A stretch of DNA of 48,544 nt from Bacillota bacterium (GTDB taxonomy: Bacteria; Bacillota; Limnochordia; DUMW01), in NCBI GenBank assembly GCA_012839765.1, contig DUMW01000045.1:1-48544 (forward strand), given 5' to 3'. Each line of letters begins with the position of its first letter. Within the stretch, counting starts at the first letter, position 1. The position numbers were made by a program, and so were the translations under genes. The notes beneath the pieces are model-generated. The model did no database searches. It saw nothing but the letters and a program-made list of their open reading frames with translations, and was not told the DNA's origin. Positions 19,634 to 25,122 of the stretch are shown piece after piece.

Positions 19634-20305
19634 ATGACGAAGAAGGCACTTATCGTTCAAGGTGGCTGGGATGGGCACGAGCCCGTGCAGGTTTCGGAGC
19701 TTTTCCGGGACATTCTAACGGAGGAAGGGTTTGCGGTAAGGGTTGAGGATACCCTCGACGCCTTCCTCGACGAAGAGGAATTGTTGTCCTTGCATCTTAT
19801 CGTTCCGGTCTGGACCATGGGCAAGATTACCCAGGCGCAGCTTAACCCGGTTTTGAAGGCTGTGGCCGGCGGTGTGGGAATCGCCGGTTGTCACGGAGGG
19901 ATGTGTGATGCCTTTAGGGAGTGTGTGGATTGGCAGTTCATGACCGGAGGCAATTGGGTGGCCCATCCTGGAAACGATGGCACCGAGTATGTGGTAAACA
20001 TCAAACGGGGTTCTAGTCCCATTGTGGAAGGGATTGAGGACTTTACCGTGAAAAGTGAGCAGTATTATCTCCACGTGGATCCGGCAGTGGAGGTCTTAGC
20101 CACCACTCGTTTTCCCACCGCAGATGGCCCCCACGTAACCAACGGGCCGGTGGATATGCCGGTGGTGTGGACGAAGCGTTGGGGCAAGGGCCGCGTCTTC
20201 TATTGTTCCTTGGGACATCATGCGGACATCGTGGCCATGAAACCGGTAAAGACCATCATGCGCCGGGGGTTTTTGTGGGCCGCGGAAGGCAAGGATTTGG
20301 CCTGA
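19634..20305 (+). CDS. ThuA-like protein (copy 1)
   Basis: A 223-residue ThuA-family protein with the glutamine-amidotransferase-like fold. Visible family features: KALIVQGGWDGHEP at the N-terminus, GIAGCHGGMCDAF where the family has its conserved Gly-His-Gly turn, and RVFYCSLGHHADI near residue 188. ThuA proteins act on oxidised (3-keto) disaccharides or glycosides with Gfo/Idh dehydrogenases. GAAAGGAAG precedes the ATG. It lies between two Gfo/Idh genes with gaps of about 20-30 bases, so they form one operon. Confidence 0.9.
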   Translation: MTKKALIVQGGWDGHEPVQVSELFRDILTEEGFAVRVEDTLDAFLDEEELLSLHLIVPVWTMGKITQAQLNPVLKAVAGGVGIAGCHGGMCDAFRECVDWQFMTGGNWVAHPGNDGTEYVVNIKRGSSPIVEGIEDFTVKSEQYYLHVDPAVEVLATTRFPTADGPHVTNGPVDMPVVWTKRWGKGRVFYCSLGHHADIVAMKPVKTIMRRGFLWAAEGKDLA

Positions 20306-20326
20306 CAAGAGGGGAGGAGCTAGAGG

Positions 20327-21415
20327 ATGGAACCGATGAAGGTCGGTGTGGTTGGTTGCGGTAACATCAGCGGAATCTACTTTACTAACCTGCAGCGATT
20401 GCCTGGAGTGACGCTGGTGGCTTGTAGTGATCTGATCCCCGAACGGGCTCAGGCCAAGGCCGCTGAGTTTGGGATTAAAGCCTGCAGTGTGGAGGAATTA
20501 CTAGCAGATCCACAGATCGATATCGTCCTTAACCTGACGATCCCCAAGGCCCACGCGGAAGTGAACCTAGCGGCCTTGGAAGCGGGCAAGCACGTTTACG
20601 TGGAAAAGCCCTTGGCCATCAGCTTGGAGGACGGAAGGAAGACCCTGGAGCTGGCAGCTCAAAAGGGGTTGCGGGTGGGTTCTGCCCCGGATACCTTCCT
20701 CGGCGGGGGACTACAGACCTGCCGTAAATTGATTGACGATGGGGCCATAGGCACTCCTGTGGCGGCTACCGCCTTCATGACCTGTCCAGGCCATGAAGGG
20801 TGGCACCCTGACCCCGAGTTCTATTACAAACCCGGTGGCGGTCCCATGTTTGACATGGGCCCCTATTACCTTACTGCGCTGGTTTCCCTCGTTGGGCCCA
20901 TCCGGGAAGTGACGGGCATGACAAGGATTACCTTCCCCGAGCGGACGATCACCAGCGCTCCCAAGTACGGACAAAAGATCAAAGTGGAGGTTCCCACCCA
21001 TGTGACGGGACTGATGCAATTTGCCAACGGGGCCATTGGGACCATCATTACCAGCTTCGACGTCTGGGGAGCCCATCTGCCCTGGATTGAGATCTACGGT
21101 AGTGAAGGTAGTCTTGCTGTGCCTGATCCCAACAACTTCGGGGGTCGGGTATTGTTGAAGAGACAGGGGGACTCCGAATGGAAGGAAGTGCCCCTCACCC
21201 ATGGCTATGCGGAGAACTATCGTGGACTGGGAGTGGCTGACTTGGCCCACGGGATCAAAAACAATAGGCCCCATCGGGCCAGCGGGGAACTGGCCAATCA
21301 CGTGTTAGAAGTGATGCACGGTTTTCACATTGCATCAGACCAAAGGGGCTTTTATCGGGTGGAAAGCACCTGCCAGCGCCCTGCGGCGCTACCGGTGGAT
21401 GGTAGTCTAGACTAG
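20327..21415 (+). CDS. Gfo/Idh/MocA-family sugar oxidoreductase (second type)
   Basis: A 362-residue oxidoreductase distinct from the one at 18445. The NAD(P) site is [17 protein letters not shown] is in YVEKPLAIS, and the substrate domain has the [17 protein letters not shown] motif typical of the family branch with Tyr in place of the usual His. GGGGAGGAG precedes the ATG; a second ATG 9 bases on is also possible. Last intact member of the first operon copy. Its own decayed duplicate is at 22552-22843. Confidence 0.9.
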
Positions 21416-21446
21416 GGAAACAAGAGAAACCGTCCGCATCCTTTCA

Positions 21447-21827
21447 CGAACGAAGCTCCCGGGGATCTCTAAGGCTACTCGGTTCGTCGCCGAATACCGG
21501 AAAAGGAACTACTGTGAAATCAACGGCTTTAGGGGTAGTGTCTATTACAGCTTCGAAGGGATGAGCGAACTGTTTTAGTACTCCGAAAAGGATTTATCCG
21601 GTTCTCGGCGAATTCCAAACCAACGAAGCTACCTGTCCCTTTATGGAGGCCTAATGGACCGCTGGACATATCGTTGGTTGTGAACATACCTTCATTCTCG
21701 AGACGAAATACCTCCTGGAGGCCATCGCCTGTCGGAACCGAAGTCTTTCGACGGCGTGGCCTGCCAGAAGGTATTGGACGCGGGGGCAAGATCCAGCGAA
21801 AATCGTTGTTGAGTCTAAGGAGACTAA
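21447..21827 (+). pseudogene. Decayed 3' remnant of a duplicated Gfo/Idh gene
   Basis: These bases align by eye with 19206-19602 of the first Gfo/Idh gene (shared stretches include GGTAGTGTCTATT and GCCTGCCAGAAGGTATTGGA). The copy has in-frame stops (TAG at 21576, and TGG changed to TAA at about 21651), small indels and no start, so it is not expressed as protein. It ends at the position matching the parent stop codon, directly before the second ThuA gene, mirroring the order of the first copy. Confidence 0.85.
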
Positions 21828-21858
21828 TCGGGAGCATTGGAAAGGAAGCGAGAACGTC

Positions 21859-22548
21859 ATGGAGAAGAAGGCACTTATCGTTCGAGGCGGCTGGGACGGA
21901 CACCAGCCGGTGGAGGTTTCGGAAGTCTTCAGGGACATCCTGACCGAAGAAGGGTTTGCGGTGAGGGTAGAAGAAACCCTTGATGCCTTTCTCGACGAAG
22001 AGGAATTGTTGTCCTTGCATCTCATCGTGCCGGTCTGGACCAACGGCAAGATCACCCAGGCGCAGCTCCAGCCGGTTCTGAAGGCTGTGGCCAGTGGTGT
22101 GGGGATTGCAGGTTGTCACGGCGGTATGTGTGCTGCCTTCAAGGAATGTGTGGACTGGCAGTTCATGACCGGTGGCTATTGGGTGGGCCATCCCGGAAAC
22201 GATGGTGTAGAGTATGTGGTGAACATCAAACGGGGTTCTAGCCCTATCGTGGAGGGCATTGAGGACTTTACCGTGAAAACTGAGCAGTACTATCTTCACG
22301 TGGACCCGGTGGTGGAGGTCTTGGCTACCACTAGATTCCCTACCGTCGATGGCCCCCACGCTGCCAACGGGCCGGTGGATGTGCCGGTGGTGTGGACGAA
22401 ACGCTGGGGCAAAGGCCGGGTCTTCTATTGTTCCCTAGGACATCATGCGGACATTTTACTCATCGAACCGGTGAAAACCATCATGCGCCGAGGGCTTTTG
22501 TGGGCCGCAGAGGGCAAAGACTTGGCCTTGCAAGAGGGGAAGAGCTAA
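21859..22548 (+). CDS. ThuA-like protein (copy 2, intact duplicate)
   Basis: A 229-residue duplicate of the ThuA-like protein at 19634, differing by about 25 substitutions, most of them conservative, with no frameshift. The parent stop TGA has become TTG, adding six residues (LQEGKS). GGAAAGGAAG precedes the ATG, exactly as in copy 1. Both flanking Gfo/Idh copies are wrecked while this frame is clean, so it has probably been under selection. Its expression must come from read-through of the first operon or a promoter inside the upstream remnant. Confidence 0.88.
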   Translation: MEKKALIVRGGWDGHQPVEVSEVFRDILTEEGFAVRVEETLDAFLDEEELLSLHLIVPVWTNGKITQAQLQPVLKAVASGVGIAGCHGGMCAAFKECVDWQFMTGGYWVGHPGNDGVEYVVNIKRGSSPIVEGIEDFTVKTEQYYLHVDPVVEVLATTRFPTVDGPHAANGPVDVPVVWTKRWGKGRVFYCSLGHHADILLIEPVKTIMRRGLLWAAEGKDLALQEGKS

Positions 22549-22551
22549 AGG

Positions 22552-22843
22552 ACGGAACCGATAAGATTTTTGGTCTGTCTGTTCCCAACGGTTTCGGTGG
22601 CAAGCCACCGTCGAAGAGGAGGGGGGACTTCGCAAGGAAGGAAGTCCCCTTACTCATGGTTATGCGGAAGACTTTCGGGTCCTGGGGGGCCGACTTGGTC
22701 CACAAGACCAGGAATTGCAGGCCCCATCGCTGGCCAGCCACATGCTGGAAGAGTCCACGGTTTTCATATCGCCTTAGACCATAGGGGTCTTTGCCAGGCG
22801 CAAAGCACTGCGGGCGCTGCCGGTGGATGGTAGTGAGGAATAG
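22552..22843 (+). pseudogene. Internally deleted remnant of the duplicated second Gfo/Idh gene
   Basis: The first 18 bases match the start of the gene at 20327 (with the ATG changed to ACG); then about 770 bases are missing and the sequence resumes at the equivalent of about 21113 (CCCAACGGTTTCGG against CCCAACAACTTCGG) and runs to the parent stop. Frameshifts and nonsense changes are present. Not functional. Confidence 0.85.
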
Positions 22844-22851
22844 AGAAAGAG

Positions 22852-22890
22852 AAAAACCCCCGCATCTTTTGTGATGGGGGGGTTCTTTTT
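22852..22890. terminator. Bidirectional terminator
   Basis: AACCCCC-CATC and GATG-GGGGGTT pair with a short loop (22855-22884). A T-run follows on the plus strand and a T-run also follows on the minus strand, so it can end both the sugar operon and the convergent regulator gene. Confidence 0.85.
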
Positions 22891-24229
22891 AACTGATGCT
22901 TTCGAACATATCTCCGGCTTTGGAAAGCAGCTCCTGAGCCTTTTCCGTGTCGCCTAGCTGCTGATACACCAATCCCAGTTGGTATGTGGCTGCAGCGGTC
23001 TGTTTGGCGTTTTCCGCTTGGGCCGGGGCATGGGGCTGCTGGGCCTTCAAGGTAGCCAAAGCCGTCTCTAGATGGTTTTGGGCTGCGGTGTAGTCCTTCA
23101 ATTGACGATACACCTTGCCTAAGGCGATCTGCACCGGCACCTGCGCGACGGGATCTTCCAACATACCCAAAGCCTTCTCGAGATATTCTACCGCTTCCTT
23201 GTGTTTTTGCTGGCTGCTCAGGACAAACCCGTATTCTTCGTACAGTAGTGGTTCAAGATCCGCTGCCGGTTCTTCTTGCAACAAAGCCTCCGCTGTCTGC
23301 AATCGCCGGTAGGCTTCTTCCAGCTGGTTCTGTTCCCGATGAATCACCGCGAGGTTAATGTTAAGCCTGGCCATTTCCCTTTTCGGTCCTTTGGTCACTT
23401 GCAGGAAAGCCAAGGCATCCACGGTGTATTCCAGAGCTTCCTTCAGACGGCCTTGGGCATGGAAGACATAGCCCATGGTGGTCAGTACCGAACCGTATTC
23501 GAAGTAATCGTTGTTTTCCCGGCTCAGTTTCATGACCTGCTGCAGATAATTCAGGGCTTCGGGATAGTTGCCCAAAAGGGCGTGGGTTTTGCCCAGTCCG
23601 ATGAAGATCTTCAGTTCCAAGTGGGGTTCGATGATGTCCGCATGGTTCATCAGTTCACGGGCAAGCTCAAAGGCAGTCTTCGCGGTGTCGTACCAACCCA
23701 AGTTGTGACAAATTGCACCGTAAAGGTAGTGGGCCTGCACCGTGAGGAAGTCATCCCCCGCAAGCTCTAATTCCTCGATGGCGTTCTTAATGGGTTCCAA
23801 AGCACCGTTCATATCCTCCTGCCCGATGTAGCACCGGGCGAGGTTCAAATAGATGCGGCCCCGGGAATAGAAATCGTCCACGGCCACCTCTTCCAGTGCC
23901 TCTTCATAAAGACCGATGGCCTGATTCCACCGCTCCTTTTTTTCACAACTGCGGGCAACCGCCAAGGTCTTCTCTAACCGATGATTAAGTTCCCGGATTG
24001 GAGTGGTGGTTTCGTCATCGAGAAAGAAGCTTATGGGTTTGTTCAACCGCTGCGCGATGATTTGCAGGCTCTTTAGGGATGGGTTGGCTTCGTTCTTTTC
24101 CAGCTGACTGATAAAACTCTTCGTGAAATCATCTCCAGCCAATTCCTGCTGCGTCATGTTCAAGCGCTTGCGCATCCGACGTATTTTTTCACCAAGGGTT
24201 ACCTGGGTCACGTGACACACCACCTTCAT
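22889..24229 (-). CDS. XRE-type regulator with TPR repeats (RRNPP-like peptide receptor)
   Basis: A 446-residue protein with an N-terminal Cro/C1 HTH (TLGEKIRRMRKRLNMTQQEL through FISQLEKNEANPSLKSL, residues 11-58) and about eight TPR repeats from residue 95 to the end (for example ARCYIGQEDMNGALEPI, GLGKTHALLGNYPEALNYL, GLVYQQLGDTEKAQELL). This is the architecture of the RRNPP cytoplasmic receptors (PlcR, PrgX, NprR, Rap, AimR) that bind short re-imported peptides in the TPR groove. The ATG at 24229 has AAGGG upstream; a GTG at 24211 is an alternative. It is divergent from a secreted peptide precursor with repeats, which strengthens the receptor reading. Confidence 0.85.
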   Translation of the reverse strand: MKVVCHVTQVTLGEKIRRMRKRLNMTQQELAGDDFTKSFISQLEKNEANPSLKSLQIIAQRLNKPISFFLDDETTTPIRELNHRLEKTLAVARSCEKKERWNQAIGLYEEALEEVAVDDFYSRGRIYLNLARCYIGQEDMNGALEPIKNAIEELELAGDDFLTVQAHYLYGAICHNLGWYDTAKTAFELARELMNHADIIEPHLELKIFIGLGKTHALLGNYPEALNYLQQVMKLSRENNDYFEYGSVLTTMGYVFHAQGRLKEALEYTVDALAFLQVTKGPKREMARLNINLAVIHREQNQLEEAYRRLQTAEALLQEEPAADLEPLLYEEYGFVLSSQQKHKEAVEYLEKALGMLEDPVAQVPVQIALGKVYRQLKDYTAAQNHLETALATLKAQQPHAPAQAENAKQTAAATYQLGLVYQQLGDTEKAQELLSKAGDMFESIS

Positions 24230-24265
24230 CTGGCCCTTATGTTCATAAAAGCTGAACGCAAATCC

Positions 24266-24294
24266 AACTTACCATATAAATGGACGGGAGTCAA
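24266..24294 (-). promoter_or_regulatory. Possible promoter of the XRE-TPR gene
   Basis: On the minus strand TTGACT (24289-24294), a 17-base spacer and TAAGTT (24266-24271), about 37 bases before the start codon. The -10 box is weak. Confidence 0.4.
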
Positions 24295-24316
24295 ACGAAA
24301 TATGGTCCAGAAGGTC

Positions 24317-24345
24317 TTGACAATAGGTAAAGTGGTTGTTATCAT
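24317..24345 (+). promoter_or_regulatory. Promoter of the peptide-precursor gene
   Basis: TTGACA (24317-24322), a 17-base spacer and TATCAT (24340-24345): close to the sigma-A consensus. The spacer contains GTAAAGTGG (24327-24335), whose exact inverse CCACTTTAC lies at 24391-24399; these could be two halves of a looping operator for the neighbouring regulator. The leader also contains a GC-rich hairpin region at 24366-24392. Confidence 0.7.
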
Positions 24346-24421
24346 AGGGGTGTCGGCAAGGGGGGGCCGGTGGGGACAAGTCGCCCCAGGCCACTTTACA
24401 TAGGAACGGAGGTGAGCTTCG

Positions 24422-24646
24422 TTGCGGCTGAAAATGCGGCTGCCAGCTCTGTTGTTGAGTGCGGTGTTGGTTATAGCGGTGTTTTCAGGCATCTTGCTTT
24501 CCGCCCCGGAGGCAGCATCCATGGTGGAAGGTTCCCAGGCCCGGATGTCCATTCCACCGATCAAGCCCTTCGGAGAGGAAAAAGTAGCGCGCATGTCCAT
24601 CCCGCCTATTAAGCCCTTCAGCGATGGTTCCTCGGCTTCTGCCTAA
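24422..24646 (+). CDS. Secreted repeat-containing peptide-pheromone precursor
   Basis: A 74-residue precursor. TTG at 24422 is the start because GGAGGTGAG ends 6-7 bases before it; the ATG at 24434 is too far. Residues 1-7 are basic, 8-28 are a hydrophobic Sec signal, and cleavage is likely near APEAAS (28-33). The mature part contains the same 11 residues twice, ARMSIPPIKPF, at 40-50 and 56-66, one every 16 residues. The two coding repeats (24539-24571 and 24587-24619) differ at six third-codon positions and at no amino acid, showing selection on the peptide. No Cys or modification genes nearby. Together with the divergent XRE-TPR gene it reads as the ligand of a peptide-signalling pair. Confidence 0.8.
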   Translation: MRLKMRLPALLLSAVLVIAVFSGILLSAPEAASMVEGSQARMSIPPIKPFGEEKVARMSIPPIKPFSDGSSASA

Positions 24647-24702: not shown

Positions 24703-24726
24703 GGGTGACGCACTCACGCGTCACCC
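24703..24726. terminator. Hairpin after the peptide-precursor gene
   Basis: Perfect 9-bp stem GGGTGACGC / GCGTCACCC with a 6-base loop, about 57 bases after the stop codon. It lacks a T-run, so termination is probable but not certain. Confidence 0.5.
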
Positions 24727-24921: not shown

Positions 24922-25122
24922 ATGGATGGCCTAGCAAAGGATGCTTGTCTGATTTGTCGGGAGGAGCCCAAGACAGGGGTAACATTCTGCAATACCACCC
25001 TTTGTAGCGCCTGTGAACGGCTGATCCTGCAGATTTCCCCGGGGGATCCCGGGTATGAACGGATAGTGGAGCAAATCAAGGAGTTTTGGGTGCGGAATCC
25101 AGCCTATATCAGCTTGGCTTAG
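24922..25122 (+). CDS. gin: Sigma-G inhibitor Gin (CsfB) family protein
   Basis: A 66-residue protein with the Gin zinc-ribbon pattern: CLIC at residues 9-12 and CSAC at 28-31, followed by a helix (ERIVEQIKEFWVRNP) that corresponds to the conserved C-terminal part. In B. subtilis CsfB/Gin binds sigma-G and sigma-E to time sporulation gene expression. GAGGCGGTGA precedes the ATG. It lies upstream of the yaaO-like decarboxylase and tmk just as csfB does in B. subtilis, which supports the assignment and implies a sporulating lineage. Confidence 0.85.
   Translation: MDGLAKDACLICREEPKTGVTFCNTTLCSACERLILQISPGDPGYERIVEQIKEFWVRNPAYISLA

Follow-up and report, generated by a model that had tools for sequence, protein, structure and literature searches.

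A candidate RRNPP-like receptor and peptide pair beside the sporulation gene gin in an almost uncultured class of the Bacillota

In the stretch of 48,544 nucleotides that was analysed here as a whole (the window), the gene of a TPR-containing regulator and a small ORF with an internal repeat lie back-to-back on opposite strands, separated by 192 bp. This arrangement raises the question of whether the regulator is the receptor of a peptide made from its neighbour, as had been proposed by a sequence-only reading of the locus, or whether another relation between the two genes explains it better.

The regulator gene is located at positions 22,889 to 24,229 on the minus strand and encodes an XRE-type protein of 446 aa with an HTH domain and nine TPRs, a putative peptide receptor. 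The initial assignment as an HTH and TPR protein of this length was confirmed by Pfam and by an AlphaFold (AF2) model: HTH_3 was detected at the N terminus with 38.8 bits (cut-off 23), many TPR families scored above the Pfam cut-off, and the model (mean pLDDT 91.8) contains the HTH domain and nine TPR helix pairs. The true start possibly lies within the first ten codons, since the orthologues begin near residue 8. At the 3′ end of the gene, an intrinsic-terminator-like hairpin followed by a U run was found (22,852 to 22,887, minus strand; RNA fold z −3.9).

The small ORF (24,422 to 24,646, plus strand) encodes a putative precursor of 74 aa with a TTG start codon and the Shine-Dalgarno sequence GGAGGTG 7 nt upstream. 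Its N terminus is strongly hydrophobic (3.16 over 12 residues), and a Sec-type signal sequence, MRLKMRLPALLLSAVLVIAVFSGILLSAPEAAS (24,422 to 24,520, plus strand), is predicted from the hydrophobicity, with the probable cleavage place chosen by eye from small residues at −3 and −1. Downstream of it, ARMSIPPIKPF with its PPxxP motif is encoded twice on the plus strand, at 24,539 to 24,571 and at 24,587 to 24,619, with a spacing of 48 nt or 16 residues. The two copies of 33 nt differ at six positions, every one a synonymous third position, exactly as had been noted at first sight. For six random changes the probability of this outcome is about 7e-5 (about 7 in 100,000), and the repeat is therefore peptide coding and under selection. 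Outside the precursor, ARMSIPPIKPF was not found in the 2.56 Mb assembly (121 contigs), and no homologue of the precursor was detected by tblastn or exact motif searches of phages, plasmids and genomes of the class. One match coding for IPPIKPF in the genome G030 was rejected because it is antisense to a CCA-adding-enzyme-like gene.

The comparison was based on 73 genomes of the class, in which the window genome is the single one of its order. Receptor homologues are present in 22 of the 73 genomes, most of them divergent from gin (PF10764) and a gene for an Orn/Lys decarboxylase. An initial filter for signal-bearing ORFs missed the peptides of the relatives, which were revealed by reading the receptor-gin gaps one by one: at the same place and on the same divergent strand, a small ORF with a related motif was found. 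In total, 14 genomes of three families carry it (the uncultured source organism and 13 relatives from its class), namely 1 of 1 in f1, 3 of 3 in f12 and 10 of 11 in f5, where the count of 10 includes the genome G015, whose receptor is cut by a contig end. The motif reads CSLSLPPLDPGP in all three f12 genomes, with the core LSLPPLDPG, and RSRxLNLPxTDPGD or a close variant in the ten f5 genomes; MSIPPIKPF of the window aligns with LSLPPLDPG in f12 and with LNLPPTDPG in f5. The expectation that related receptors would have an adjacent ORF with a repeat like SIPPIKPF thus came true in three families. It did not extend to all homologues, as one f5 receptor and many homologues in f4, f6, f14, f16 and other classes are without the small motif ORF.

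The overall dimensions of the locus are similar in the relatives, with receptors of about 430 to 465 aa, small ORFs of 59 aa in f12 and about 65 to 85 aa in f5, and a distance of about 200 to 220 bp between the two genes in f12 and in the f5 group g8. The start codon of the f5 ORFs (GTG AGC in g8) is predicted from the Shine-Dalgarno sequence and the conservation of the reading frame alone. Within g8 (L047, L048, L050, L056 and L063), a block YREKYICCLIRE upstream of the motif is conserved in the precursor, and the N-terminal block is also conserved at the DNA level as CATATGCTGT. In a genome of another class (G344, locus L149, 4,001 to 4,195), a receptor homologue is followed at a distance of 7 bp by a secreted ORF of 64 aa, MARAKWLLVLFLVFALLLNTGAVVLANASATEAATTSGGGSAGPNDGPIDPPDYPPGSGDGDSG; this ORF ends in GPIDPPDYPPGSGDGDSG and also has a PPxxP motif. 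This PPDYPPG ORF was rejected as another pair, its nearest relatives having no such ORF.

The gap between the two genes was examined for promoters. A near-consensus sigma-A-type promoter, TTGACA-N17-TATCAT, had been proposed for the precursor at 24,317 to 24,345 (plus strand). It agrees with the consensus at 11 of 12 bases and has a spacer of 17. By chance, the region should hold about one site of promoter-like sequence, but this one is made credible by the recurrence of TTGACA-N17-TAnnnT in each of the 14 gaps with a peptide, where it precedes the small ORF and stands back-to-back with the receptor gene. A weak candidate promoter of the receptor, TTGACT-N17-TAAGTT (24,266 to 24,294, minus strand), lies back-to-back with it; it scored below the threshold of the scan and was taken from sequence comparison, GTCAAACGAAA at this site being common to the window and f12. 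The inverted repeat that had been seen in the spacer and leader of the precursor promoter is present as described, with the left arm GTAAAGTGG at 24,327 to 24,335 (plus strand) and the right arm CCACTTTAC at 24,391 to 24,399 (minus strand). Its proposed role as an operator is weak and as a conserved operator was rejected, as an equally long inverted repeat occurs in 4.2% of dinucleotide-shuffled gaps (0.042) and the repeat is absent from the gaps of the relatives. A third half-site in the genome, TATGTAAAGTGG on contig 75, was dismissed, with about one such site expected by chance.

For the statistical evaluation, a strict motif [LIM][SN][LIM]PxxZP was defined, in which Z is D, K, E, N or R. 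Six-frame translations of unrelated loci (683,748 residues) contain it once and control loci of the class (357,762 residues) three times, and it was not found in the gin or receptor loci of f3, f4, f6, f8, f9, f10, f14 and f16. Within the full set of gin and receptor loci that were examined, it occurs nowhere but in the gaps that bear a pair, and resampling of each gap resulted in a chance of 0.001 to 0.003 per gap. In the motif codons, dS is 0.26 and dN 0.01 in f12, and dS is 0.60 and dN 0.05 in f5; the excess of synonymous change is gone in shifted reading frames. These substitutions show strong purifying selection on the codons of the motif. The results bear on the view that the likeness of the three motifs is coincidental or reflects a DNA or RNA element, receptor and ORF being neighbours without a relation. 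It would agree with the lack of a precursor homologue in searches at BLAST level and with the N termini of the small ORFs, which differ between the families. The selection acts in frame, however, the low chance per gap applies to three families, the motif is missing from control loci and the promoter layout is common to 14 gaps, so that this view is very improbable.

The genomic surroundings also differ in their conservation. The pair was correctly placed by the sequence-only reading between a sugar operon and gin, the gene of an inhibitor of sigma-G (24,922 to 25,122, plus strand; PF10764, E 5.4e-12). Its idea of a population-dependent control of the sugar operon received no support: among the relatives examined, it is gin and not this operon that is conserved next to the pair. 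Within the window, a ThuA and Gfo/Idh gene pair is duplicated in tandem (19,634 to 22,840), and the second Gfo/Idh copy (about 22,550 to 22,840), directly behind the 3′ end of the receptor gene, appears to be a frameshifted remnant. In f5 loci, including L047 and L049, tRNA-Asn is encoded directly downstream of the receptor, and in these two the 5S rRNA as well, so that an rRNA operon ends there. The genome G006 has two gin genes, on contigs C25 and C89. In f16 (L052, L053, L054 and L057), the receptor homologue adjoins a convergent BofA-like gene, without a peptide ORF, and in L053 gin is also nearby, which suggests that the regulator belongs to an old bofA-gin sporulation block.

Between the precursor and gin, a hairpin GGGTGACGC/GCGTCACCC without a T run was found (24,703 to 24,726, plus strand). 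Hairpins without a U run are also located after the motif ORF and before gin in f5 gaps. These hairpins of the window and f5 could be terminators or processing sites, and read-through into gin may be possible, since the interval from precursor to gin shows no convincing terminator with a T run.

If the regulator senses the peptide, its groove should bear traces of this. The TPR register was set by Gly8 and Ala20 of each repeat, with positions 2, 5, 9, 12 and 13 facing the ligand. In the peptide-bearing family f5, conservation is 0.74 in the groove versus 0.61 at other exposed positions (p 0.006), most of it in TPR3 to TPR6, and in the peptide-less family f16 the values are 0.51 versus 0.57 (p 0.83). 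Across f1, f12 and f5, identity in the groove is 0.23 without enrichment, the three families having different residues there. A joint divergence of peptides and grooves would have this result, but so would the absence of a ligand. Lineage-specific conserved sites were not enriched in the groove when all three families were taken together (3 of 16 sites); the within-family test alone was positive. Two residues distinguish the complete peptide-bearing receptors in the alignment, both picked post hoc and from few, related lineages: Y254 is present in 12 of 12 versus 0 of 9 others, and N292 in 12 of 12 versus 1 of 9 others. L059, the sole f5 receptor without a peptide, carries the groove exchanges Y254H, N292R and R298L and has also lost the TTGACA-N17-TAnnnT promoter. 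N292 is at what we take to be the repeat position of the groove Asn of RNPP receptors, two before Gly8. In these receptors, the conserved Asn anchors the peptide backbone, for example Asn227 in RapF (PMC3601957).

The groove data also help to judge whether the product of the small ORF is rather an effector that is secreted, for instance an antimicrobial, a surface peptide or a RiPP-like one with repeated cores, under the control of a regulator that does not sense the peptide. Repeated cores in a secreted precursor are known from multi-core peptides as well, and HaaT and FxSxx, TPR regulators of RiPP systems, are among the distant NCBIfam models, far below their cut-offs against the receptor. 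Those large ORFs of the window that were scanned and the conserved gin neighbourhood contain no modification enzyme or dedicated exporter, and the groove conservation tracks the peptide up to the joint loss in L059, leaving an effector improbable. Taken together, the pairing, the selection, the promoter layout, the groove conservation tracking the peptide and the joint loss in L059 argue for a receptor with a peptide ligand, so that the proposal of a functional pair is supported by 14 genomes, motif selection and matching groove conservation. From these comparisons, the peptide is quite probably the ligand of the neighbouring receptor.

Whether this ligand leaves the cell is a separate question. 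The two-copy, Sec-secreted precursor that had been described would apply to the window alone, where the signal is clear from hydrophobicity; in the relatives the motif is present in a single copy, the signal is weak in f12, and the larger family f5 has none. For this reason, a ligand that stays inside the cell has to be taken seriously as an alternative: the small protein would be a partner within the same cell, an antagonist or co-regulator that binds the TPR groove by its conserved motif, and the Sec signal of the window a derived or unrelated feature. In the f5 precursors, which have no signal sequence, the motif is best conserved and in most cases located at the extreme C terminus, and linear motifs at the C termini of cytosolic proteins are common partners of TPR grooves. 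On the other hand, the strong signal sequence and the two motif copies of the window fit a processed, secreted peptide, the N terminus in f12 is weakly signal-like, and export of RRNPP peptides without a SignalP-type Sec signal is known (PptAB, PMC10075063). An intracellular partner is rather unlikely, and the chances are about even that the peptide is also a secreted cell-to-cell signal in the source organism.

The best explanation of these sequence data, adopted with fair confidence, is a receptor that works with its peptide in the RRNPP manner, the small ORF supplying the groove ligand. The five-criterion signature of RRNPP systems includes a receptor of 250 to 500 aa with TPRs and usually an HTH domain, a propeptide of 10 to 100 aa, adjacent genes (−60 to 400 bp) and export of the propeptide by Sec or PptAB (PMC10075063). 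The window pair agrees with it in receptor length (446 aa), TPRs, small propeptide (74 aa) and adjacency (192 bp); for Sec export, the sequence offers a clear predicted signal in the window alone. As in PlcR-PapR, NprR-NprX, Rgg-SHP, AimR-AimP and Rap-Phr (RRNPP/RRNPPA), the receptor has TPRs and an HTH domain (Rap is without HTH), a small precursor is adjacent, and a short linear peptide and a conserved groove Asn are found. Duplication of the peptide within the precursor is described for Phr, NprX, PapR and AimP systems (PMC5199041, PMC9765709). The pair differs from these systems in its PPxxP peptide core, its divergent arrangement in a sporulation block and the missing Sec signal in most relatives, and it matches no known subfamily above cut-off: RNPP_C reached 22.0 of the required 26.5 bits in Pfam and no NCBIfam regulator model scored above cut-off. 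The sequence profile (2qfc, E 1e-12) and the fold (3u3w, E 4e-7) both point to PlcR as the nearest RRNPP receptor, but PlcR comprises only about 285 aa with five TPRs instead of 446 aa with nine repeats, and in the fold search the best matches were generic peptide-binding TPR proteins (LGN, OGT), with PlcR only at rank 50. Its peptide PapR7, ADLPFEF, has no PPxxP. Gin/CsfB of the bofA-gin block is encoded beside the pair in the window, f12 and f5, and a BofA-like protein beside the receptor in f16; to our knowledge, the classical bofA-csfB block of Bacillus contains neither the receptor nor the peptide. Neither SIPPIKPF nor LNLPLTDPGD is mentioned in the literature searched, and earlier RRNPP surveys were based on complete genomes only and do not name the class of the window. 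The locus probably represents an undescribed, RRNPP-like peptide-sensing system beside a sporulation gene and in no known subfamily. It is regarded as a candidate new RRNPP-like family rather than a proven quorum-sensing system.

In such a system, the small ORF would give rise to a short linear peptide with the core [LM][SN][LI]P(P/L/A)xxP. In the window, the precursor would be exported via Sec and cut into one nonamer-like peptide per repeat, about MSIPPIKPF, which may re-enter the cell through an oligopeptide permease; several genes of the oligopeptide-binding type (PF00496) are present in the source genome. The peptide would dock in the concave groove of TPR3 to TPR7 of the adjacent regulator and alter its DNA binding, most simply at the common divergent promoter region (autoregulation) and possibly also at gin downstream.

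The system offers a defined candidate ligand of nine residues and, in the groove, Y254, N292 and E331 as three candidate residues. A tentative extension, to which only a modest probability is assigned, is a class-specific family in which the conserved PPxxP core is kept with a TPR receptor beside gin and export depends on the lineage, from a secreted two-copy pheromone to an unexported ligand. If true, sporulation control would be tied to a peptide system that has moved between self-sensing and cell-cell signalling in one direction or the other. The difference in export signal between lineages opens the origin of bacterial pheromones from intracellular ligands to direct test. The pair itself would extend peptide-receptor regulation of the RRNPP type to an almost uncultured, deep class of the Bacillota, beside the inhibitor of a sporulation sigma factor.
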